From the IMG/VR virus record IMGVR_UViG_3300001242_000084, positions 1 to 25,204 of that record: a DNA stretch of 25,204 nucleotides; one strand, given 5' to 3'. Made by a program: the position numbers and the translations under genes. Positions 164 to 23,487 of this stretch are shown here, piece after piece. The notes below the pieces were generated by a model. It was not told where the DNA came from, made no database searches, and was given only the letters and a program-made list of their open reading frames with translations. Within the stretch, counting starts at the first letter, position 1. Each line of letters begins with the position of its first letter. The DNA is from a virus.

Positions 164-231
164 ATAAGAGATAGGTTGGGCTTGCAATCCAACTGATAAG
201 GCTAGTTCCTTTCACTAGCCTTCTTTTATTT
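164..231 (+). ncRNA. Two-hairpin RNA element A (leader hairpin plus intrinsic terminator) before the GIY-YIG gene
   Basis: The sequence ATAAGAGATAG is followed by hairpin I (GTTGG 175-179 with CCAAC 189-193, extendable by G-U pairs), the spacer TGATAAG, and hairpin II (AAGGCTAG 198-205 with CTAGCCTT 215-222, 8 perfect pairs). A T-rich tail CTTTTATTT follows, so hairpin II is a credible Rho-independent terminator for the upstream gene. The same skeleton recurs at 5848-5930. The hairpin II loop (TTCCTTTC, 206-213) is an exact complement of GAAAGGAA at 260-267, the ribosome binding site of the following gene. The terminator role is well supported; the regulatory role is inference. Confidence 0.7.
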
Positions 232-274
232 GTTTAATTTTAAGAAAGGATTCTCATTAGAAAGGAATGATAAA

Positions 275-1192
275 ATGGATAAAAATTTTATAGAAATTAC
301 TAATTTTTGTAGTAGTAGAATAATTGATATAAGCATACGAGAATGTGGAATATATGCACTGTATAATATTGAAAATGGAAAGATTTATGTTGGTAGTAGT
401 ATAGACATGTACACTAGAACGAGAAGACATCTTTCTGATTTAAAAAATGGAAAACATTATAATAGATATTTAATTAGAGCATATAAAAAATATGGAAATT
501 CAATAATACCTGTTGTTTTAGAAATTGTAAAAAATAGAGAAAGTCTAATTGAACGTGAACAATACTGGATTGATCATTTTGAAAGTTACAATAATAAGGT
601 TGGGTATAATATTTGTATTATTGCAGATAGATTAACTGGTATTTTTAGAACTGATGAAGAAAAGAAACATTTAAGTATTATAAATACTGGCAGAAAACTT
701 ACAGAAGAGACTAAACAAAAAATAAGTGAATCTAGAAAAGGAATTCAATATTCAGCAGAAACATTAAAAAGGATGAGTGATTCACATATTGGCAAAAATT
801 TATCTGAAAGTGCAAAAGAAAAGTTAAGAAACAATATAAATATAATTCCAATATATCAATACAGTTTAGAGGGAGAATTTATACAAAAATGGAAAAGTTC
901 TGCTGAAGCATCAAGAACTAGTGGATTTGAATCATCTTCTATAACAAAATGTTGTAGAGGGAAATTATATAAGCATAAGGGATTTATTTGGAAATATGAA
1001 TATTTTGAAAAATTAGAACTAAAATTTAAAAAGATTATTCAAAAAGACTTAAATAATAAAATAATAAAAATATGGGATTCTATGAGTGATGTTTGTAAAA
1101 CTTTAGCATTTAGTTCTAGTGCTATATGCCAATGTTGTTTGGGTCATTGGGAAAAATATAAAAATTTTAAATGGGAATATATGTTTTGTTAA
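275..1192 (+). CDS. GIY-YIG homing endonuclease with NUMOD DNA-binding repeats
   Basis: Free-standing homing endonuclease, 305 residues from the ATG at 275. That start has AAAGGA at 261-266 in front of it; an in-frame TTG at 230 has no such site. Domains in order: GIY-YIG nuclease at about 24-105, with GIY at 25-27, YVG at 38-40, an arginine-rich stretch (TRTRRH) and a REQYWIDHF segment carrying the expected catalytic Glu; NUMOD3-like helices at about 145-190 (NTGRKLTEETKQKIS, then a second similar unit); and two NUMOD1/IENR1-like repeats at about 195-250 and 255-305, both ending in a KGFIWKYE-type motif. Such proteins cut DNA lacking the insertion and spread their own gene. It lies between structural genes and has no intron around it. 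Family assignment is strong; target site unknown. Confidence 0.93.
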   Translation: MDKNFIEITNFCSSRIIDISIRECGIYALYNIENGKIYVGSSIDMYTRTRRHLSDLKNGKHYNRYLIRAYKKYGNSIIPVVLEIVKNRESLIEREQYWIDHFESYNNKVGYNICIIADRLTGIFRTDEEKKHLSIINTGRKLTEETKQKISESRKGIQYSAETLKRMSDSHIGKNLSESAKEKLRNNINIIPIYQYSLEGEFIQKWKSSAEASRTSGFESSSITKCCRGKLYKHKGFIWKYEYFEKLELKFKKIIQKDLNNKIIKIWDSMSDVCKTLAFSSSAICQCCLGHWEKYKNFKWEYMFC

Positions 1193-1242
1193 ACTATTTT
1201 AAATTAAATAATAACAACAAATATTAAAAAGGAGGGCATATA

Positions 1243-1965
1243 ATGCCAAATACAAACACAAGCAACAAAAATAAGAAAGTGCATAGCGTTTTCTTAGGAA
1301 GAAAAATCAGAGAGTTCTACAAATTAAATGACAATGGTTATTCCAATGCATATTTAAGCACAGAAAAAGAAACATTGGAAAGAGTAGAGTTACTAGAGGT
1401 AGAATTAGACTATGAATTAAAAATAGGTGATGAAATTTTCTTACATGAATATGAAGTTTATGCAAAAGTTCAAAAAGTAACAAATGGAACAGATAGTAAG
1501 GTCTATTATAATCTATCTTATGTTGTTGAAGAAATTGATGATAAAGAAGATACTTATAAGGAACTTATTGACCAATATAATAGTCTTAAAGAAAAATATG
1601 ATACTGAAAAAGAAAAACAAAATAAAGAATTGGCAGAAAAGAATAATAAAATAAAAGAACAATCAGAAAAAGAGGAAGTTGAATTTAAAAGAGTTCAAAA
1701 TGAAAGAATTGAATGGCAAAAAGATAATTTTGATAAACTAAAGGGAATTGTATGTAACAAACTTCCTATGAGAAAAGATTCTGATTCTCTTCTTTTTAAT
1801 AAAGTTCAGCAAATAAATATCACAAAGTATTTATTAGACACTATTCCAAAGGAGTATATATTGATTAATCTTCCTACTGACATTATCTATATGCCATTTA
1901 ATAATGACTTTAAACCATTAGAAATTAAAGAAGTCCAAGAATATTTATCTGATTTAGAGCAATAA
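1243..1965 (+). CDS. Hypothetical coiled-coil protein of the head module
   Basis: A 240-residue protein starting at ATG 1243 behind a good AAAGGAGGG site. I do not recognise the family. Residues about 1-95 look globular and beta-rich (LGRKIREFYKL, EIFLHEYEVYAKVQKV); residues about 100-160 are a highly charged coiled coil rich in K, E and Q; the C-terminal 75 residues are a second mixed region. There is no signal peptide or membrane segment. It lies 28 bases upstream of the protease/scaffold gene, so a head-assembly or portal-associated role is plausible by position only. The real neighbour before the GIY-YIG insertion was probably the gene ending at 149. Confidence 0.75.
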   Translation: MPNTNTSNKNKKVHSVFLGRKIREFYKLNDNGYSNAYLSTEKETLERVELLEVELDYELKIGDEIFLHEYEVYAKVQKVTNGTDSKVYYNLSYVVEEIDDKEDTYKELIDQYNSLKEKYDTEKEKQNKELAEKNNKIKEQSEKEEVEFKRVQNERIEWQKDNFDKLKGIVCNKLPMRKDSDSLLFNKVQQINITKYLLDTIPKEYILINLPTDIIYMPFNNDFKPLEIKEVQEYLSDLEQ

Positions 1966-1993
1966 ATAGTTTAATTATAATATTTGAAAGGAG

Positions 1994-3583
1994 GTGAGGA
2001 AAACGAAAAATAGTGTAATAGAAATATCTAAAAAGACATCGAAAGCAGGACGCACTCCCATCAAACTCATTCTTCACAAAATTCACAAGGATTCTGCTGA
2101 ATATAATGGAAATGGCATCCATTGGGAAAAAGAATATATTGAAAATAATATTGAATCAGTAAAAAATATGCCTCTTGTTGCCCAATTTATGGACAGTGAA
2201 AATACAATTCCTTTTGGAAGTCATGGTGATATGATAGTCGAAGAAAATAGAGTCATTTTTGAAGATAGTCTTGTTGTTGGAACGTTTGAAAGTGCATACA
2301 TAGCTGAAAATATAGAAGTCAATAATGAAATAATCGATGCTTTAGTCGGTGTTGGATACGTATATGATCAAAGATTTCCAGAATTAATTGATTATTTACA
2401 AGAAGAGTATGACAGTGGCAATTCAGTAGAAGGTTCAATTGAAATTTGTGCAGATAAATCTTTAGGAAATAAGAAAATAATTTATGAAGGGGGATGGAAA
2501 GAGAAAAATAGAATCCCAAAATTATTTCAATATTCTGGTCATGCTCTTGTAATAGGAGAGGTTCCTGCTGATAAATCTGCTCTCATGCTAGAGTTGAATA
2601 CACTTAAAAAAAAAGAGGTGAATATATTGCCAGACGACAATTCTATTATTGACAATAAAGATAAAACAATAATTGAAATAAATGCAATGAATTATAATGA
2701 TATTTCTATGATTGTTGAAAGTAAATTCAATAAAAAACAAAATATAGATGAATCAAATTATTCTTATTATTATGTTCATAAATTTTATCCAACTATATCA
2801 ACATTCATAATGAAATGTTGGGATAAAACAGGAGAATATTGTCAAATTACTTACACAATTGAAAATGGTGAGGTAAAACTTGGTGAAACTATTAAAGTCG
2901 AGGAAGATTGGAAACCTCTAAATGGTGAAGAATCTGTCGAAGTTAATACACCAGTTAAAAATATATTAAATAATCAAATAAAGGAGGAAAGAAATAGAAT
3001 GGATGAGAAAATCGTATTAGAACTCAATCAAAAAATCGAAGATAAAATCAATGAAATTAATACGTTGAATAAATCTTTAGAGGAAAAATCAACAGAAATT
3101 AATACTTTAACTAAATCTTTGGAAGAAAAACAAATAGAAGTTAATAGCTTAACAGAAAAAAATCAAGAATTAGATGGCAAAGTAAATGAGGCGAATACTA
3201 CAATTGTAGAGGTTAATAAATTACTTGAATCTGAAAAAGCAGAAAAAGAATCTCTTACTGTCGAAGTAAATTCTTTCAGAGAAGAAAAAATTAAAGCAGA
3301 TTCAGAAGCAAAAATTGCAGAAGTAAATGCATATTTTGAAACAGAAATTACGAAAAATGGTTTTGAAGAAAGCGAAGTTAATTCACTTAAAACCTTTGTA
3401 GAAGCAATTGATTTAGAAGGACTAAAGAAAGCAGAAGCAGAATTATGTGCAAAGAAATTTAAAGAAATGATTGCATCTCAAGATACCTCTGTTGAAACTA
3501 ATACTAAGAATGATATGTTTATTTCTATTAAAGAAAAAGAAATGAAAAAGGTTCCTGGTAGTATCCCATCTTTCTTTAACTAA
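1994..3583 (+). CDS. Prohead protease / scaffold polyprotein
   Basis: 529 residues in three parts. About 1-205 resembles phage prohead serine proteases: a GSHGDM motif with a candidate catalytic His, a GSIEI motif with a candidate Ser after SVE, and a C-terminal GHALVIGEVPADKSALM stretch. About 212-330 is a compact domain (YYYVHKFYPTISTFIMKCWD, then QITYTIENGEVKLGE) often attached to phage proteases but of unknown role. About 336-500 is a long charged coiled coil with INTL/EVN repeats, typical of capsid scaffold. Position directly before the small head protein and major capsid gene fits. The start is doubtful: GTG 1994 lies inside the AGGAGGTG binding site, and ACG 2003 has the proper spacing. 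Internal start signals at 2627 and 2999 are listed separately. The catalytic residues are inferred from motifs, not aligned. Confidence 0.82.
   Translation: MRKTKNSVIEISKKTSKAGRTPIKLILHKIHKDSAEYNGNGIHWEKEYIENNIESVKNMPLVAQFMDSENTIPFGSHGDMIVEENRVIFEDSLVVGTFESAYIAENIEVNNEIIDALVGVGYVYDQRFPELIDYLQEEYDSGNSVEGSIEICADKSLGNKKIIYEGGWKEKNRIPKLFQYSGHALVIGEVPADKSALMLELNTLKKKEVNILPDDNSIIDNKDKTIIEINAMNYNDISMIVESKFNKKQNIDESNYSYYYVHKFYPTISTFIMKCWDKTGEYCQITYTIENGEVKLGETIKVEEDWKPLNGEESVEVNTPVKNILNNQIKEERNRMDEKIVLELNQKIEDKINEINTLNKSLEEKSTEINTLTKSLEEKQIEVNSLTEKNQELDGKVNEANTTIVEVNKLLESEKAEKESLTVEVNSFREEKIKADSEAKIAEVNAYFETEITKNGFEESEVNSLKTFVEAIDLEGLKKAEAELCAKKFKEMIASQDTSVETNTKNDMFISIKEKEMKKVPGSIPSFFN
2999..3583 (+). 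CDS. Nested in-frame scaffold start within the protease gene
   Basis: AAGGAGGAAAG at 2981-2991 precedes an in-frame ATG at 2999, which would give a separate 194-residue scaffold protein consisting almost wholly of the charged coiled coil (starts MDEKIVLELNQKIEDK). Nested scaffold genes in the same frame as a capsid protease are known from lambda (C/Nu3) and relatives. The binding site is as strong as those of the independent genes here, although the spacing of about 11 bases is slightly long. The sequence shows the signal; actual internal initiation is inferred. Confidence 0.6.
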   Translation: MDEKIVLELNQKIEDKINEINTLNKSLEEKSTEINTLTKSLEEKQIEVNSLTEKNQELDGKVNEANTTIVEVNKLLESEKAEKESLTVEVNSFREEKIKADSEAKIAEVNAYFETEITKNGFEESEVNSLKTFVEAIDLEGLKKAEAELCAKKFKEMIASQDTSVETNTKNDMFISIKEKEMKKVPGSIPSFFN

Positions 3584-3689
3584 GTTTTAGAAAGTAAAGA
3601 TAAATATATAATTAATTTTAACAATGAGTAATAGTTAAATAGTAGTGGTTAATTAATAACAAAAATAAAAAGAAATGAGGTAATTAATA

Positions 3690-4211
3690 ATGAGTTTATT
3701 TAAATTCCATGATTCAAATTTTCTTAACGTATCCAACAAACCTAATGTAAAGGCAATTGCAGATACATACAATGGTTATCAGTTCAATGTTACATCTGAT
3801 GTTCAGGTATTAGTTCCAGATTTAGCTACAGCAAAATTAGGTGATATTTATGTTATGCGTAATATCATTGACAAACCAGAAATTATTAACACTGATTCCT
3901 ATAAAATTGTTGCAAATGAGTATATTCGTGCTTTTAGACTTAAAGACATGGTAGGACTTCAACTTGATATGTCTGCTGATTTGCTTACAGATGCTTTTGC
4001 TGACGTTGCTGTTGGTGCTTTGGTCATTGGTCGCTCTGTAGCAGATACTACCAATCCAATGAAGTGGACTAAAACTGCTGATGTTTCTGCATATGAAATT
4101 TATCTTAAAGTAATCAAGAAAACTACTTTTGGTGCATTTACAATTGATGCAGGTGGTGGAACTGTTGCTGGTGGTTATGTTGTAGAAGTAATGGCAAACG
4201 ATAATCTGTAA
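3690..4211 (+). CDS. Small head protein, possibly decoration or capsid-associated
   Basis: A 173-residue protein from ATG 3690 with a GAGGT binding site. I do not recognise a named family. It has no signal peptide or membrane helix, is moderately acidic, and contains a predicted beta-rich C-terminal half (FGAFTIDAGGGTVAGGYVVEV). Its gene sits between the protease/scaffold gene and the major capsid gene, where phages commonly keep a decoration, stabilisation or head-fibre protein. Codon choice is less AT-biased than the endonuclease genes, as is usual for abundant virion proteins. The structural role is inferred from position. Confidence 0.7.
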   Translation: MSLFKFHDSNFLNVSNKPNVKAIADTYNGYQFNVTSDVQVLVPDLATAKLGDIYVMRNIIDKPEIINTDSYKIVANEYIRAFRLKDMVGLQLDMSADLLTDAFADVAVGALVIGRSVADTTNPMKWTKTADVSAYEIYLKVIKKTTFGAFTIDAGGGTVAGGYVVEVMANDNL

Positions 4212-4337
4212 GTTATGAGATTATAGATTATTGTATGTAATTTTTGTAAGTAATATATAATATTTTTTAATTAATGTCAAATAGTAAAATTATAAAATAA
4301 TATTAATAATTAATAAGAAAGAAAAGAGGTATTAACA
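4212..4337 (+). promoter_or_regulatory. Intergenic region upstream of the major capsid gene
   Basis: 126 AT-rich bases without a gene. A TATAAT at 4256-4261 has a TTGTAT 19 bases upstream (4231-4236), a weak candidate sigma-A promoter with over-long spacing. AGAGG at 4325-4329 is the capsid ribosome binding site. No convincing terminator hairpin is present, so the capsid gene may also be read from upstream. Confidence 0.25.
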
Positions 4338-5359
4338 ATGAGTTTTGGAATAGATTTTACAAAATTACAAGAGAATGCAGAACAAGTTGAGATTAATAAG
4401 ATTGTAAAGAATAAGTTGGCGAACGCATCACGTCTAAGTGAAGACGTAGAGATTTTTACAAATATTGTTTATGGTAAAGATGTATCTAAATATGGTAAAA
4501 AAGTTGATACAGTGATGGATAAAATTAAAACTTTAGCTGGAATGGCTAATGATGGTAATACTCAGGCTAAAGCTGAGTTGAATGCTATTCGTACTATTAC
4601 TATTCAGCAACCTTTGGAAAAGAGATTAGCTATTAATAGTGCTATGGGGAATGTAACAAAGGTATTGGCAAACGAGGAACTGAGGTATTCCGTTGCCCAA
4701 TTACAAGGAGAGAAATCAAGAGTTCAAGCCAATTCTGGTTCTTTTGTATTCCCAACTGTTAAGAAAAGAACTGGAACTATGACTGTTCAAAATGCAACAG
4801 GTGGTTTGATTATCGATCCAAGAGAATTAATGTCTGGTGATACAGATACGATGGCTTATGCTAATGAACAAGTATTGACTTCTATTATTAACCAAATGGT
4901 TCTTTCTCATATCAATGCTTTAAGAAGTGCTATTACTGCTGCCACCACATTGAAAAACTACAGCGAGGGGATTACTAAGACTAATGTCGAAAATACAAGA
5001 AAATTAGCGAGACGTTTTGGTTCTTCTGTTACAATTATGGGAGACTATAGTGCAGTTAATAAGTTAAGTGATCTTGCTAATTTTAGTGTTGTTGCTGCTG
5101 GAACAGAATTTAGATTCCCAGACTCAGTGATGGAAGAAGTAATGAAGACTGGTCTTCTTAAAGTATATAAAGGAAGTCTCGTCATAGAAATGCCTAATAG
5201 CTATAATATGATTGATCTTAATACCGCTGGAGATTTCTATGCTCCTCAATTACCTACAACTGATTTGTGGTTCTTACCACAAGGCCAAGTTAGTCCCCTT
5301 CAGATCGGAATTCAGGGTGGTTTGACTAGTATGACAGCCACAGACATTAATTTAAGGGT
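4338..5359 (+). CDS. Major capsid protein, 5' exon
   Basis: Encodes the first 340 residues plus two bases of codon 341 of a probable HK97-fold major capsid protein. ATG 4338 follows AAAGAGGT. The continuous reading frame runs on into the intron to TAG 5391-5393, but the residues after INLRV are intron-encoded and not expected in the protein. N-terminal residues about 1-125 are helical and charged, compatible with a removable delta/scaffold-like region. A protease gene upstream supports maturation cleavage. Features from about 145 on, such as GSFVFPTVKKRTGTMTV and DLWFLPQGQVSPLQIGIQGG, look like a capsid core. Identification rests on position after protease/scaffold, size and composition, not on an alignment. 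Confidence 0.85.
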
Positions 5360-5746
5360 AACTTTAGCCCCGTATGTACAGAAATGCGCATAGGACACTT
5401 CCTTAATTGCAGGTAATTCCTAAAGCTCTCATGCCACAACATAAGGATGAAATATGCCTAAGTGTGACGGAACGAAAGTAGAAAAAAGTTGAGAGATGGC
5501 ATAAGGTTAAATCCTAAGTGCTTTTACAATGGATGTTCATTGCAGGTAAGACTCGAATAGAGTAAACTTCAACGACTATGGCTGAAATGCCAGTACACTC
5601 AAGCGAGTGGAAAATGGAAGCCCTTAACAGATAATGCTGAAGGTGAAGAAATAGTCTATTCTCATATGAAAGTATGAGCAGTTATAAACGATATAGAAGT
5701 TGCGATTCTATATGAATATAAATTTATAAAAAGCCGAAGTTACAAG
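5360..5746 (+). ncRNA. ORF-less group I intron in the major capsid gene
   Basis: About 387 bases of structured sequence separate two pieces of one reading frame. P1: 5' exon GGGU (5356-5359) pairs with GCCC (5367-5370), with the conserved U-G pair at the splice. P7: GACTAT 5574-5579 with ATAGTC 5651-5656. P8: CACTC 5596-5600 with GAGTG 5605-5609. P9: CTCATA 5661-5666 with TATGAG 5673-5678. A P9.1-like hairpin is ATATAGAA 5691-5698 with TTCTATAT 5706-5713. The terminal G at 5746 would be omega-G. The motifs AATTGCAGGTAATTCCTAAAGC and AACGACTATGGCTGAAATGC are of group I core type, probably subgroup IA. Splicing 5359 to 5747 joins codon GT+A and continues as VYDISYGNKVLIEL. The intron has no endonuclease gene. 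Core assignment is strong; exact splice sites are predicted. Confidence 0.88.
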
Positions 5747-5831
5747 ATACGATATTTCCTACGGAAACAAGGTTCTAATTGAGCTAATTCCGGCGATGGG
5801 ATATATATATGATGCTGCTCTAGCTGAGTAA
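5747..5831 (+). CDS. Major capsid protein, 3' exon
   Basis: Supplies the last base of codon 341 and 27 further codons ending in TAA 5829-5831, giving a spliced product of about 368 residues. The encoded tail reads YDISYGNKVLIELIPAMGY followed by IYDAALAE, a beta-strand-like sequence reasonable for the end of a capsid core domain. There is no start codon or ribosome binding site of its own, and the reading frame is open into the intron, so it is read as an exon rather than a separate gene. Alternative 3' splice points after the G at 5738 or 5733 keep the frame only with other 5' sites and give less natural joins. Confidence 0.82.
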
Positions 5832-5847
5832 ATATCAAACTAATTTT

Positions 5848-5933
5848 ATAAGAGATAGGTATTAATTATAATCGCGAGTTTAATTAATTACTGACAAGAG
5901 TGGTTTTCCTAAGCCACTCTTCTTTTATTTATA
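5848..5933 (+). ncRNA. Two-hairpin RNA element B before the Vsr-like endonuclease
   Basis: Same skeleton as the element at 164-231: ATAAGAGATAG, hairpin I (GTATTAATTA 5859-5868 with TAATTAATTAC 5881-5891, one bulge), TGACAAG, hairpin II (AAGAGTGG 5896-5903 with CCACTCTT 5914-5921, 8 pairs), then CTTTTATTT. The stem sequences differ completely from element A while the flanks and tail are kept, so the structure appears conserved by compensatory change. Hairpin II should terminate transcription of the capsid gene. The loop TCCTA (5907-5911) can pair with TAGGA (5952-5956) in the next ribosome binding site, a shorter match than in element A. Confidence 0.7.
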
Positions 5934-5966
5934 AAAAAATTAGGTATTCGATAGGAGGGATTAAAT

Positions 5967-7299
5967 GTGGGCAAGAAACTAAATATTGATCAGTTTAAAC
6001 AATGGATGTTAGAAAATTCTGTTGATATAAAATGTATTAGTAACTATGGTGTTGATGATAAAATTGATAGTAAAACAGAACTATTATTCCAATGCAATAG
6101 AAATCATACATTCTCAAAAACAATAACTAATTTCAAAAAGAATCCTAGGTGTCCTCATTGCACTGGAAAGTGTAAATATACATTTGAAGATGCTAAAAGG
6201 ATAGTCGAAGCAGTAGAAGGTTATTTATTAATATCGACTGAATATGTCAGATGTAAAGATTATTTAATTATTCAATGTGATAAAGGTCATCCCTTCCCAA
6301 TGACATTTACAGCTTTTAATGTCGGAGGACACAGGTGTCCTATTTGTAACACAGGAGGGAAATATAAGTATGATTTAGAAATTGCAAAAGAAATTTTTAA
6401 ATTAGAAAAGTGCGAACTGTTAGTAGACGAATATATAGATTGCGATACATACATACATGCCTTATATGTGTTCATGTGGTAATCCAAGCAAAATTTCTTT
6501 AATAGAATTTATCAGAGGTCATAGATGCAAAATTTGTGGTAATAAGAAAACTGGTGACGGTTTAAGAACGCCATACATAGAAACATATAATTATTTTAAA
6601 GATAATGGTTGTGAATTATTATCCACAGAAGACGAAATACAGAATAATAAAACAAAAGTAAGATATATTTGTTCTTGTGGAAACCCAGATGAAGTATTGG
6701 TTGAAAAGTTTAAAGTTGGCGAAAGATGCAACAACTGTAAACAAGAAAGAACTGAGGCAACATTTTTAGACAGATATGGTTTCAAGTATGCATTATCAAG
6801 TCCAGAAATAAGAGAAAAAATTAGACAAACTCTTTATAAAAATGGATCAGCACCATGTAGTAAACAACAGGAATATATACACAATCTAATTGGTGGAGAA
6901 CTTAATTATCCTGTAAAAACATCTTCTTTGGACATTGCTTTCCTAGAAGAAATGATTTATTTAGAGTACGATGGCGGTGGACATAAGAATAGTATTTTGT
7001 ATGGCACTGTTACAGAAGCAGAGTTTATAAAAAGAGAAAGAAATAGAACTTATGGGCTACTACGTTCTGGTTGGAAAGAAATTAGAATCATTAGTGAAAA
7101 AGATGACCTAATCCCATCAGACCAAAAGCTTCTAGAAATCCTATCCTACGCACGTAAATATCTAAATCAAAATCATCATTACATAAAATTTGACATTGAC
7201 AATTCAAAAATAATTAATTCTCAAGGTGAATTTGACTATGATTTTGGCGAACTAAGAAAAATCAAACCAACAGATATTCAAATCCAAGAAGCAATATAA
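5967..7299 (+). pseudogene. Vsr/EDxHD-like homing endonuclease with zinc-binding repeats, frameshifted
   Basis: Two overlapping frames (5967-6482 and 6457-7299) form one gene. GTG 5967 follows AGGAGG at 5953-5958; an ATG at 5965 stops after five codons. The first part carries repeated treble-clef zinc-binding units of the type CNxxHxF...CPHC and CDKGHPF...CPIC. The second continues the repeats (CSCGNP...CKICG, CSCGNP...CNNC) and ends in a Vsr-like nuclease fold with LDIAF, LEYDGGGH and RERNRTYGLLRSGW, matching the EDxHD/Vsr-type homing endonucleases. The frame breaks inside three ATAC copies (6445-6456); removing four bases gives DTYMPYMCSCGN, restoring both frame and zinc motif. It lies 135 bases after the intron-bearing capsid gene. 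Either a recent inactivation or a sequencing artefact. Confidence 0.85.
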
Positions 7300-14275: not shown

Positions 14276-14553
14276 AAAATGAAGATAAAATTGAAGATAC
14301 TGACAAAAATGATATAGAAATCATTAATATTGAGAAAGTAAAAGATGAAAAAGTTGTTCTTAAATTAAGAGAAGAAATTTGTAAAGTAGTATGGGTAAAA
14401 TATAATTTTTTTGGGGTTGACTTTAAGGGATATGGAATTACTTTCAGTCTCGATGATGGATATTTAGTAGATAATATTAAAGATAATATTAAAATCAAAT
14501 ATGAATCTGAAATTGGGAAAGAGGATTTTAAAGCATATCCTATGTTTAAATAA
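14260..14553 (+). CDS. Small charged hypothetical protein
   Basis: 97 residues from ATG 14260 preceded by AGAGGTGATTTC. Residues 1-30 are highly charged (KNEDKIEDTDKNDIEIINI) and the rest looks like a compact beta domain (VVWVKYNFFGVDFKGYGITF, then SLDDGYLVD). Unrecognised. It is the last gene before a 13-pair terminator that closes the structural operon. A position after the tail tube gene would suit a tail assembly protein, but no chaperone features such as a slippery fusion are visible. Confidence 0.6.
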   Translation: MPKRVKNEDKIEDTDKNDIEIINIEKVKDEKVVLKLREEICKVVWVKYNFFGVDFKGYGITFSLDDGYLVDNIKDNIKIKYESEIGKEDFKAYPMFK

Positions 14554-14611
14554 AAATAAGGAGAAGTAGCAGAAGAAATAAAACGCTTCTCTCTTCTCCT
14601 TATTTTTTTAC
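14554..14611 (+). terminator. Strong intrinsic terminator closing the structural cluster
   Basis: AAATAAGGAGAAG (14554-14566) pairs perfectly with CTTCTCCTTATTT (14593-14605) over 13 base pairs. The 26-base loop itself contains a short AGC/GCT and GAAG/CTTC pairing. A run of T residues ends the structure. It starts directly after the preceding stop codon. Confidence 0.9.
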
Positions 14612-15654: not shown

Positions 15655-16143
15655 ATGAAAATTTGCCCACCACAAGGTTTATCTAATATTAGTGGAATTA
15701 CTGGAACAATTCAAATGTATGCAGGAACAACAGCACCTTCAGGATATCTGATTTGTGATGGTTCAGCAGTATCTAGAACGACTTATTCAGCATTATTTAG
15801 TGTGATAGGAATAAGTTATGGAGCAGGTAATGGAAGTAGTACATTTAATGTTCCAAATTTCAAAGGTAGGGTGCCTGTCGGATTAGACTCATCTCAAACT
15901 GAATTTGATGCGTTAAATAAAATTGGCGGAAGCAAAAATCATGTTTTAACTATCGAGGAAATGCCAGCGCACAAACACACATTTAATGATAATTATGGGG
16001 TTCAAAATGTTGAAGTTACATTTTATAATGGAACAGCAACTGATGAAATTGAAAGATGGGAGGATACATCTACTGTTGGAGGAGGTCTCGCGCATAATAA
16101 TTTACAACCCTACTGTACAATTTCTTTTGTGATTAAAATTTAA
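15655..16143 (+). CDS. Tail collar domain protein
   Basis: 162 residues from ATG 15655, with GGAGGTG at 15641-15647; a longer in-frame reading from 15634 has no start signal. The core is a phage tail-collar (microcystin-dependent-protein-like) domain: GTIQMYAGTTAPSGYLICDG, then YSALFSVIG, FNVPNFKGRVPVG and GSKNHVLTIEEMPAHKH. Such domains sit at the C-terminus of tail fibres or host-recognition proteins and often bear variable residues. The final NNLQPYCTISFVIKI is characteristic of the family. Acts at the tail tip, probably with the protein encoded just upstream. Confidence 0.9.
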   Translation: MKICPPQGLSNISGITGTIQMYAGTTAPSGYLICDGSAVSRTTYSALFSVIGISYGAGNGSSTFNVPNFKGRVPVGLDSSQTEFDALNKIGGSKNHVLTIEEMPAHKHTFNDNYGVQNVEVTFYNGTATDEIERWEDTSTVGGGLAHNNLQPYCTISFVIKI

Positions 16144-16165
16144 TATAAAAATAAATATTTGGTTG

Positions 16166-16236
16166 TTTAAATAATTTGCAAGTTATTTAAATGTAAAACG
16201 AAGAGGCGTACTGCTATACGACTCTTTATCCTATTT
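16166..16236 (+). ncRNA. Two tandem hairpins (second terminator-like) before the third endonuclease
   Basis: Hairpin I is TTTAAATAA (16166-16174) with TTATTTAAA (16183-16191), 9 pairs. Hairpin II is AAGAG-g-CGTA (16201-16210) with TACG-a-CTCTT (16217-16226), 5+4 pairs around one mismatch, then a T-rich stretch to 16236. The layout echoes elements A and B, but the conserved ATAAGAGATAG box is missing. The 3' arm CTCTTT can instead pair with AAAGAG in the endonuclease ribosome binding site (16255-16260). Confidence 0.55.
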
Positions 16237-16268
16237 TCAAAGCTTTTTGGCAGAAAAGAGGTAAAATG

Positions 16269-21431: not shown

Positions 21432-21870
21432 TATAATTTATTGGTATGTTTTTTACCAAATCATATATAATATATCTTTTGGTAATTTTCATACCAATAA
21501 TAACAAATAAAATAATAATTAATAAATCATATCCATGAAGTAATTTTGGGACACCAAAATTGCGTAATGTTCCGTAGGACAAATATCAAATCAATAAAAA
21601 CAACAAATAACCCAACGAAGCAAGGTCTTGTATTGCTATGTCGAAATACGCTTCTAGTCATTTCGCTAACGCTCAATGACTAGGATTTATTATTTGCTTA
21701 AATGATTTGTTAAATTTAATCCACTCATCACAAATTCTTAATAATAAATAAATAAAATTATTGTCGAAACAAATCACAATAAAAATCTAGCAATTTCCTC
21801 CTTTTTACTATATACTTAACACAACAAACAAATCCAAATAATCAAATTATAGTAAATGGAGGAAAGAAAT
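21432..21870 (+). other. 439-base non-coding region before the CWB2 gene
   Basis: No credible gene. Contents in order: twin dyads at 21441-21497 (listed separately); hairpin AATTTTGG/CCAAAATT (21542-21561) with loop GACA; a region of nested pairings 21617-21683, including AGCAA 21619-21623/TTGCT 21633-21637, GAAGC/GCTTC (21617-21654) and CTAGTCATT/AATGACTAG (21654-21683). Further on are TTTCCTCCTTTT at 21795-21806, which is complementary to ribosome binding sites, and a weak -10-like TATACT at 21811. GGAGG at 21858-21862 is the binding site for ATG 21871. The 21600-21690 part is more GC-rich than its surroundings and could be a small RNA or a leader. Confidence 0.6.
21441..21497 (+). promoter_or_regulatory. 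Twin operator-like dyads TTGGTA-N7-TACCAA
   Basis: Dyad 1 is TTGGTA 21441-21446 with TACCAA 21454-21459; dyad 2 is TTGGTA 21479-21484 with TACCAA 21492-21497. Both have seven-base spacers, and the centres are 38 bases apart. The whole block is also a large inverted repeat (TTATTGGTATG...CATACCAATAA). Between them is an AT-rich stretch; TTGGTA-N17-TATATA on the plus strand and TTGGTA-N17-TATATT on the minus strand would make overlapping weak promoters. Two identical spaced sites suggest binding of a dimeric repressor; the promoter role is inferred. Confidence 0.6.
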
Positions 21871-23487
21871 ATGAAAAGAAAACTATTCCCTAAAAAACTA
21901 TTAACCACAATTTCCACAATCACATTATCCATTGCTCTATTATTCACATCCTCATCTGTATTACCAACATTAGGTGCAACAAACACAAATCCAACAATTA
22001 ATAGGCTCAGTGGTAATGACCGTTACGACACATCATCTCAAATTGCCAAGCAAGGGTGGTCTAATGGCTCAGATTCTTGTATTCTTGTCTATGGAGGTAA
22101 TTATCCTGATGCACTCTCAGCAACACCTTTAGCAAAAAAACTTAATGCTCCAATATTGCTTACGGAAAACACATCGCTTACTCCAATAACAAAGCAGACA
22201 ATAGTTGATCTGAATGTTAAAAACGTCACAATTATCGGTGGTACAGGTGTATTATCATCTGCAATTGATACAGAATTGCAATCAATGAATATTAATGTAA
22301 CTAGAATTTTTGGTCAAACTCAGTATGATACAGCTATAGAAATTGCTAAACAATTCCCTTCTCCAAATGAACTAATAGTCTGCACTGGAGAAGAATTCTC
22401 TGACTCACTTTCAATTTCTCCTGTAGCATCAATTAAGCAAATACCGATTATATTGGTTCCTTCTGATAACATGCCAAGTTCAGTAAAAAATTATATTAAT
22501 ACAAATTCAGCAAATATTACGAAATCCTATATAATTGGAAATACAGACATAATTAATGATAATGTTGCCAATCAATTTCCAAATGTTGAAAAAATATCAG
22601 GTGCAACAAAATATGATAGAAATATAGCCATAAATCAAAAATTCAATAATCAATTTAATTCAAATAATATTTGTCTTGCCACTGGTGAGCAATTTCCAGA
22701 CGCTCTAAGTGGAAGTTCTTATGCATCCAAAATATCTTCTCCAATTATTTTAGTAAATAATGCTACTCCTAATGGTACGAAAAATTATTATCAGCAAAGA
22801 TTAACAAATACTGATAATGTAATCGTTTTTGGTGGTACAGCAGTTGTTCCAGATAGTGTAATACAAGGATTAGGCAATATAAGTAGTACAGATACGAATG
22901 TAAATGTACCTATTACTCCTATTGCACCAATTGCACCAATTGATATTGACAATACTAATATTGTTAATAATTCAAATAATACTACTAATTCAAATAACAA
23001 TAATACTACTACCATAATTAATAATGGATCTTCAAGTATAGATACTTCAACTGGTTGCATTAAAGGTTCTGTCACTTGGCAGTATAATAAATTTATTGGA
23101 ACCAAAGCAGATGTCGGAGCAAAAATAGCTTTAATACCAAAAAATCTCAATAAAAATAGTGATAATCCAGTTTTTTCTTTAACATTATCACAAATACCTC
23201 AAGGTCAGAATGGAATTTATACTGCGAAAGCTAATGGATATGGAGAATATGAAATTGCTGATGTTCCAGTTGGTAGTTATTATTTGTTAATTTCTTCTGT
23301 AAACACGAATAATAATATGACAATATCTTCAATTGATCAACAAATATTAAGCAATTTATTGTCTTCAATGGATTGGAAATTTATTCAACCAACTTTAAAA
23401 ATTCATAAGTATAATCTAATTAAAGTGCAGATAGAGGGTGGAAAAACCTTGACAGAAAGTTATGACTTTGGAAACACTTATATTTAG
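21871..23487 (+). CDS. Secreted CWB2-repeat cell-surface protein
   Basis: 538 residues from ATG 21871 (GGAGG spacing 8; ATG 21856 lies before the binding site and is rejected). Residues 1-35 are a signal peptide: KRK at the start, hydrophobic core, then LGA before the mature end. About 43-330 contain three cell-wall-binding repeats 2 (CWB2) starting RLSGNDRYDTS, RIFGQTQYDTA and KISGATKYDRN. Each has an IIGGTGVL/VIVFGG-type strand or its variant. About 345-395 is a low-complexity Asn/Thr/Pro/Ile linker; about 400-538 is a carboxypeptidase-regulatory/Cna_B-like beta domain. CWB2 domains anchor clostridial proteins to wall polymers. Here the host-type gene is embedded among phage genes. No LPXTG or membrane anchor. 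Function could be adhesion or superinfection exclusion; unproven. Confidence 0.9.
   Translation: MKRKLFPKKLLTTISTITLSIALLFTSSSVLPTLGATNTNPTINRLSGNDRYDTSSQIAKQGWSNGSDSCILVYGGNYPDALSATPLAKKLNAPILLTENTSLTPITKQTIVDLNVKNVTIIGGTGVLSSAIDTELQSMNINVTRIFGQTQYDTAIEIAKQFPSPNELIVCTGEEFSDSLSISPVASIKQIPIILVPSDNMPSSVKNYINTNSANITKSYIIGNTDIINDNVANQFPNVEKISGATKYDRNIAINQKFNNQFNSNNICLATGEQFPDALSGSSYASKISSPIILVNNATPNGTKNYYQQRLTNTDNVIVFGGTAVVPDSVIQGLGNISSTDTNVNVPITPIAPIAPIDIDNTNIVNNSNNTTNSNNNNTTTIINNGSSSIDTSTGCIKGSVTWQYNKFIGTKADVGAKIALIPKNLNKNSDNPVFSLTLSQIPQGQNGIYTAKANGYGEYEIADVPVGSYYLLISSVNTNNNMTISSIDQQILSNLLSSMDWKFIQPTLKIHKYNLIKVQIEGGKTLTESYDFGNTYI

Follow-up and report, generated by a model that had tools for sequence, protein, structure and literature searches.

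A three-way-junction RNA upstream of phage homing endonuclease genes, with a loop complementary to the translation start region

Two copies of a structured RNA element precede homing endonuclease genes (HEGs) in a viral DNA of 25,204 nt (IMG/VR virus record IMGVR_UViG_3300001242_000084, positions 1 to 25,204; this whole stretch is called the window below), and they belong to a family of which more than 100 distinct copies were found in phage contigs by covariance model. The element is a predicted three-way junction of helices P1, P2 and P3. The apical loop of P3 has two complementary sites in tandem downstream: site A lies shortly after P1, and site B covers the Shine-Dalgarno (SD) or start region of the following gene. 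We consider it likely that the element is a cis-acting translational switch, a two-state leader that travels with its endonuclease as a cassette.

Both copies (e1 and e2) had been proposed, at 164–231 and 5848–5933, in a sequence-only reading of the window, and both are real: the window has exactly two matches to the pattern AAGAGATAG-N(8,38)-TGAYAAG where 0.01 would be expected, none of 100 shuffles had two, and the minimum free energy folds have z-scores of −2.8 (e1) and −3.9 (e2). That reading described a skeleton of two hairpins, which are retained here as P2 and P3, together with a box 'ATAAGAGATAG' and a tail 'CTTTTATTT' as separate boxes, a view that has to be given up, because on folding these are the two strands of a third helix. 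More specifically, P1, which closes the junction, consists of the 5′ box AAUAAGAGA base-paired to the tail UCUUUUAUU, and P3 abuts P1 with no unpaired letters between them. The junction strands are AUAG 5′ of P2 and UGAN 5′ of P3, within the near-invariant letters GAUAG before P2 and UGANAAG after it. The parts of the two copies and the genes behind them, with bit scores from the second of two covariance models (R2), are as follows.

161–233, + strand: whole element e1, a three-way-junction RNA (78 bits, R2)
163–171, + strand: 5′ strand of e1 P1, AAUAAGAGA, paired with 222–230 (UCUUUUAUU) and covarying in homologues
222–230, + strand: 3′ strand of e1 P1, UCUUUUAUU, the 'tail' of the sequence-only reading
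174–194, + strand: e1 P2 hairpin with the 9-nt loop GC-UUGCAA-U (palindrome UUGCAA at 182–187)
198–222, + strand: e1 P3 hairpin AAGGCUAGU..ACUAGCCUU, with loop UUCCUUUC at 206–213
244–250, + strand: e1 site A, GAAAGGA, complementary to the e1 P3 loop
260–267, + strand: e1 site B, GAAAGGAA, the SD of the GIY-YIG gene, complementary to the e1 P3 loop
275–1192, + strand: GIY-YIG homing endonuclease gene with NUMOD motifs (Pfam PF01541, E 5e-12)
5845–5932, + strand: whole element e2, a three-way-junction RNA (73 bits, R2)
5848–5855, + strand: 5′ strand of e2 P1, AUAAGAGA, paired with 5921–5928
5921–5928, + strand: 3′ strand of e2 P1, UCUUUUAU
5858–5892, + strand: e2 P2 hairpin, loop palindrome UCGCGA at 5872–5877
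5896–5921, + strand: e2 P3 hairpin AAGAGUGG..CCACUCUU, with loop UUUUCCUAAG at 5904–5913
5940–5944, + strand: e2 site A, UUAGG, complementary to the e2 P3 loop
5952–5957, + strand: e2 site B, UAGGAG, the SD of the Vsr-like gene, as read from the sequence
5967–7299, + strand: Vsr-like zinc-ribbon homing endonuclease gene, split by a frameshift (open reading frames, ORFs, 5967–6482 and 6457–7299)

At e2 the loop is complementary to UAGGA inside UAGGAG, and the run that was scored as site B is AGGGA at 5956–5960, which overlaps UAGGAG. The gene behind e2 encodes a zinc-ribbon, Vsr-like endonuclease of HNH type, and the claim that the two copies precede unrelated endonucleases holds. Most Vsr-like homologues at the site of e2 are intact (407–728 aa), unsplit homologues of 442–543 aa lie behind the same element in contigs L208–L214, and the frameshift seen in the window is also present in the near-identical contigs L204–L207 and L217.

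Different stems with the same fold had been taken as a sign of selected structure rather than of copying, and this is borne out by the many further covarying copies that a covariance model found; the contrary outcome, that no such copies would exist, failed outright. A scan of viral contigs with the two short boxes alone gave almost pure noise and became specific once the tail was added. The copies found with both boxes and the tail seeded a first model (R1; its seed alignment has a manually shortened P3 loop for L128 and lacks one letter of a flank), with which dozens more copies were found in viral contigs, and the second model, together with a scan for a different P1 sequence (GGGATAG..CTTCCCT), reached copies in very different contigs, those of this stage spanning 25–53% G+C. 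The contigs are not independent, since a few related metagenomes supplied most of the close copies.

Compensatory change is very strong in all three helices. In the first 8 copies, aligned with MAFFT without use of the structure, 96.8% of base-pair cells form and the same covariation is visible as in the larger sets. In a set of 53 distinct copies, pairs form in 95.3% of the cells (43–61% in slid controls), 16 of 21 pairs show double changes, and double-change cells number 222, where shuffles give 59.7; a second, more diverse set of 70 copies has 92.3% of cells paired and 350 double-change cells against 105, the counts of both these sets leaning towards the model because their alignments were fitted to its structure. 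P1 is kept while its letters change (AAGAGA/UCUUUU, AGGGA/UCCCU, UUUAGGGA/UCCCUAAA and others), many copies having a CUUCCCUA tail with a matching P1 strand; the tail is therefore a helix strand that can pass from UCUUUU to UCCC, and not a conserved terminator U-tract. G·U pairs interchange with A-U and G-C (in the 53-copy set, AU 36, GU 8 and GC 6 at column 8 of P1, and G·U 40, GC 8 and AU 5 at the junction pair), which points to RNA and not DNA, and all copies share the orientation of the downstream gene. No Rfam family scored above its gathering threshold in the window or in 18 member loci, and the best matches below threshold are at chance level (E 2.5 for e1 and 4.8 for e2, to leaders with a loop-SD pseudoknot). 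By these comparisons the element belongs to none of the families tested and stands as an RNA family of its own, and its predicted architecture combines the three helices and their conserved junction letters with a palindromic P2 loop, two sites complementary to the P3 loop, and a fixed orientation and position.

The sequence of the P3 loop is fully replaced across the family (CUCCCUGU, AAUCCUUG, UUUUAUCUACCGU, UUACUCACAA, UGUCAAC and others), with matching changes in both sites. Of 60 close copies 57 have two sites, whereas 300 loop swaps gave a mean of 26 and at most 37; in a wider set it is 96 of 123 copies, against 21–23 in the controls (maximum 32); under a stricter cut the numbers for the wider set are 66 and 4–7. 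As would be required of a structure that sequesters the ribosome-binding site (RBS) of a HEG, the P3 loop can pair with it. In four copies (L592, L600, L620 and L622) site B repeats site A just 5′ of the AUG although it is not SD-like, so that the target would be the start region and not the SD as such; such sites suggest hosts with SD-independent initiation. A second site that is not SD-like but lies just 5′ of the start codon was noted in L586 and L633 as well.

In the phage group of the window, an endonuclease-type ORF lies behind every copy with a readable downstream ORF, and Pfam and PHROGs assign the downstream genes to GIY-YIG, DUF4379/zinc-ribbon HNH and several 'homing endonuclease' families. 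The site behind the portal gene was counted in contigs that show sequence 3′ of the portal stop codon: 36 contigs have the element, with an endonuclease ORF behind it wherever enough sequence remains, and 19 have neither element nor endonuclease (2×2 exact p 4e-15, for contigs that are not independent). In all but one of these 19, the next structural or small gene follows 6–35 nt after the portal stop; one further contig, L238, ends just past the element. Related phages thus either have or lack element and endonuclease at one and the same place between conserved genes, as expected of a free-standing cassette, and even where a 117-aa gene without an element stands between the portal gene and the element (L468), the element still lies directly 5′ of the endonuclease. 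The endonuclease itself differs at this site, the GIY-YIG gene of the window being replaced in L140 and L172 by a Vsr-like gene; the element in front of it is nearly the same, with two compensatory pair changes in P3 relative to the window. Since the two are gained and lost together and yet the endonuclease is swapped, they form one cassette in which the endonuclease is exchangeable. At the capsid site, element and endonuclease occur in every contig that shows the site. Elements before an endonuclease ORF are also held by an interrupted tape-measure gene (L554, 1369–1443; L141, 2914–2985), about 130–145 nt 3′ of the upstream coding stretch, and these are apparently intron-borne copies. In distant phages about 14–15 of 20 tested downstream genes are endonucleases. 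The proposed association with endonucleases is, in the contigs compared, strong but not exclusive, as a minority of copies in distant phages precede other genes.

The P2 hairpin carries a 6-nt palindrome in the middle of its apical loop in 48 of 53 P2 segments, one of which is an empty entry (L559/L561), where the null has a mean of 8.9 and a maximum of 18; the second set gives 47 of 57 against a null of 9.3, and of 96 distinct P2 hairpins 82 have a central palindrome. The hexamers include UUGCAA, UUAUAA, UCGCGA, UUCGAA, AUCGAU, GUCGAC, UAAUUA, UCAUGA, UGAUCA and UAGCUA, and the commonest loop layout is 2+6+1 (two unpaired letters, the palindrome, one unpaired letter), mostly with AG..A flanks. 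Between e1 of the window and L126, UUGCAA changes symmetrically to UUAUAA in an otherwise identical P2. The dimerization initiation site (DIS) of human immunodeficiency virus 1 has a 6-nt palindrome in its apical loop and requires the flanking purines (PMC7357161). Likewise, the P2 loop is a purine-flanked palindromic loop, with a self-complementary hexamer, unpaired flanks and a palindrome kept through symmetric letter changes, and its 2+6+1 layout resembles that of the DIS loop; here, however, the hairpin forms one arm of an mRNA leader in phages, at least 10 palindromes occur, and dimerization is predicted from sequence. In OLE and GOLLD, palindromic kissing loops switch among GGCC, GAUC and AGCU, which was read there as covariation in support of homo-oligomers (PMC12286853); by the same logic, the P2 loops indicate that the element probably homodimerizes. 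OLE, GOLLD and ROOL resemble the element in being bacterial or phage RNAs with varying palindromic kissing loops, but they are large RNAs with solved structures, whereas the element is mostly a 60–90-nt cis leader tied to the downstream gene.

In the mechanism that we propose, a cassette of element and HEG would insert just behind a phage gene, and the P3 loop would form a pseudoknot with site B, hiding the RBS, so that translation of the endonuclease would be kept low while the cassette rides on a strongly transcribed structural-gene mRNA. Pairing of the same loop with site A would be the competing state, in which the start site is open, and the two together would make a two-state translational switch whose state might be set by dimerization or by ribosomes, or by a protein or ligand that binds at the junction. 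Less surely, the P2 loops of two transcripts may kiss through their palindrome, as in retroviral dimerization sites, and such homodimers could tie the state of the switch to transcript abundance. We can offer only tentatively, as a guess more likely to need revision than to stand as it is, the full form of this idea: an RNA-only, concentration-sensing switch in which P2 dimerization picks the decoy site A or the start site B for the P3 loop, the output of endonuclease is set by the level of its own mRNA, and many unrelated endonuclease families, and now and then other phage genes, have recruited the module.

Several observations weigh against the switch so described. The pairings with sites A and B are modest (5–8 bp), and random loops reach two weak sites in about one-fifth to two-fifths of cases, as any SD is rich in G and A. 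About 14 of 96 P2 loops are without a 6-nt palindrome (some have a 4-nt one), and palindromes made of A and U only, such as UAAUUA, would kiss weakly. In copies with UCUUUUAUU, P3 and the tail would also score as an intrinsic terminator. There are, in addition, copies that precede other genes: a 54-bit copy before a glycosyltransferase gene with both loop-complementary sites intact (L607, 4936–5007), a copy before a DnaD-like gene (L586), and three copies with the same P2 in the 61-kb contig L594 (8945–9018, 10178–10251 and 10912–10984), which precede amidase/regulator-like and pentapeptide repeat ORFs and suggest a module that serves as a general phage regulator.

Among the other explanations, an intrinsic terminator or attenuator would have P3 and the U-rich tail stop most transcription and limit readthrough into the endonuclease, with P2 as an accessory. 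P3 followed by UCUUUUAUU does look terminator-like in the window copies, as it does in part of the family, and in T4 weak terminators of mobE and segF are thought to limit HEG transcripts (PMC2988022). However, what is conserved is the P1 helix and P2, and not a U-tract: the rule of a hairpin followed by a U-tract in all members, as in Rho-independent terminators, does not hold, even if the window copies have a U-rich tail. Moreover, elements lie inside the interrupted tape-measure gene (L141 and L554) and among essential genes that run in one direction. The distance from element to start codon is only about 35 nt, RBS included, which, judged from sequence alone, appears to leave no room for a promoter before the HEG, and termination leaves the two loop-complementary sites and the palindromes unexplained. 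The simple terminator is disfavoured by P1 compensation without a U-tract, and the sequence-only reading's worry that the motif might be mainly an ordinary terminator is contradicted by this loss of the tract and by the loop-to-start-site pairing; we regard the explanation as improbable, while partial termination in U-rich copies is possible. Cleavage is another function with precedent, since the T4 segB and segG and the Aeh1 mobE messages are cut at RNase E or RNase E-like sites (PMC2988022) and a small three-way junction whose junction letters are conserved is a typical ribozyme trait. A site of self-cleavage or nuclease processing that parts the endonuclease message from the structural-gene message would, however, need neither loop/start-site complementarity nor palindromes, no Rfam ribozyme matches, and we hold it to be very unlikely.

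An orphan riboswitch or autoregulatory site, with the GAUAG/UGANAAG junction as receptor of a ligand or protein and the pairing of the P3 loop with the start site as output, deserves more weight, though we find it doubtful as a complete account. The junction letters are near-invariant while the helices change, and start-site pairing is a common riboswitch output; but the downstream genes have no shared metabolic theme, no known aptamer in Rfam matches, and the palindromes are not explained by it alone. Because several endonuclease families share the element, any binding factor would be common to phage or host and would not be the endonuclease itself. Such binding is compatible with the translational switch, as its trigger. 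That the element might act as DNA, as a recombination end, cruciform or endonuclease target that aids movement of the cassette, would agree with the joint coming and going of element and HEG, and palindromic hexamers are typical of DNA-protein sites. G·U pairs, nonetheless, are frequent and interchange with A-U and G-C as they would in RNA, all copies are oriented with the downstream gene, and the loop matches a translation start, which makes a DNA-level role highly improbable.

The closest known parallels to the translational switch come from the phage homing endonucleases I-TevI, I-TevII, I-TevIII, segB and Aeh1 mobE, where cis RNA hairpins hide the RBS (PMC2988022). Here too, a cis RNA structure would cover the RBS of a HEG. 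The T4-type hairpins, however, are separate and local, and a late promoter near the gene relieves them, whereas the element is one conserved three-way-junction family that many unrelated endonuclease families share, whose loop would pair with the SD at a distance and whose target is duplicated. In the preQ1-II riboswitch and in the leader of ribosomal protein L20, a loop likewise pairs with the SD region, but the Rfam scores of the element for these leaders are far below gathering. We know of no loop-SD pseudoknot family with P1, P2 and P3, a palindromic P2 loop and two target sites, and a literature search found no described HEG-linked structured RNA.

The family looks phage-specific, with the proviso that the patterns used for the bacterial scans were strict. 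These gave 77 matches in 85k genomes, none of them a convincing member by R1 (best 28 bits), and no match in 391 genomes of the class of a Vallitalea metagenome-assembled genome (MAG) or in 396 of the phylum of a Bacteroidales MAG. No convincing member was found in SPR, Geobacillus E3, Perkons, Staley or two crAss-like phages.

Elsewhere in the window, one further feature may belong to the family.

16167–16239, + strand: probable degenerate third copy just 5′ of the HEG at 16266 (weak, 12.2 bits, E 2.6)

This call is supported by position and anatomy only, namely a P2 loop UUUGCAAG with the palindrome UUGCAA and a P3-like AAGAG..CUCUU hairpin; a homologue of the HEG at 16266 has a proper element (L577), and the leader of that gene (16140–16266) probably holds either a degenerate copy or a member of a sister class. 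In the major capsid gene, about 375 nt that contain no ORF (about 5358–5733) break the coding sequence, and its reading resumes at about 5734 with AEVTRYDISYGNKVLIELIPAMGYIYDAALAE, matching uninterrupted homologues; the interruption looks like a group I intron without its own endonuclease, with no Rfam call. At 39.5% identity, the capsid protein matches that of SPbeta-group phages, which points to SPbeta-like phages; in SPbeta the late genes are transcribed as a single operon by the RNA polymerase YonO (PMC5467207), and a late polymerase of this kind was considered for the phages studied here. A long hairpin at 14547–14610 (AAATAAGGAGAAG..CTTCTCCTTATTT) is plain and terminator-like, unlike e1 and e2, and 21856–23487 encodes a secreted-looking protein with apparent repeated cell-wall-binding motifs, as judged by eye.

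The element represents an undescribed and widespread phage RNA family, absent from Rfam and common to unrelated endonuclease families. How homing endonucleases without promoters spare the phage when they sit in essential operons has so far been studied gene by gene in T4, and a single shared RNA makes this restraint testable with one reporter design; the element also predicts insertion cassettes from DNA alone. If the proposed mechanism is right, the family would supply a small natural two-state translational switch, and possibly a natural mRNA-leader case of palindromic kissing-loop dimerization in phages.

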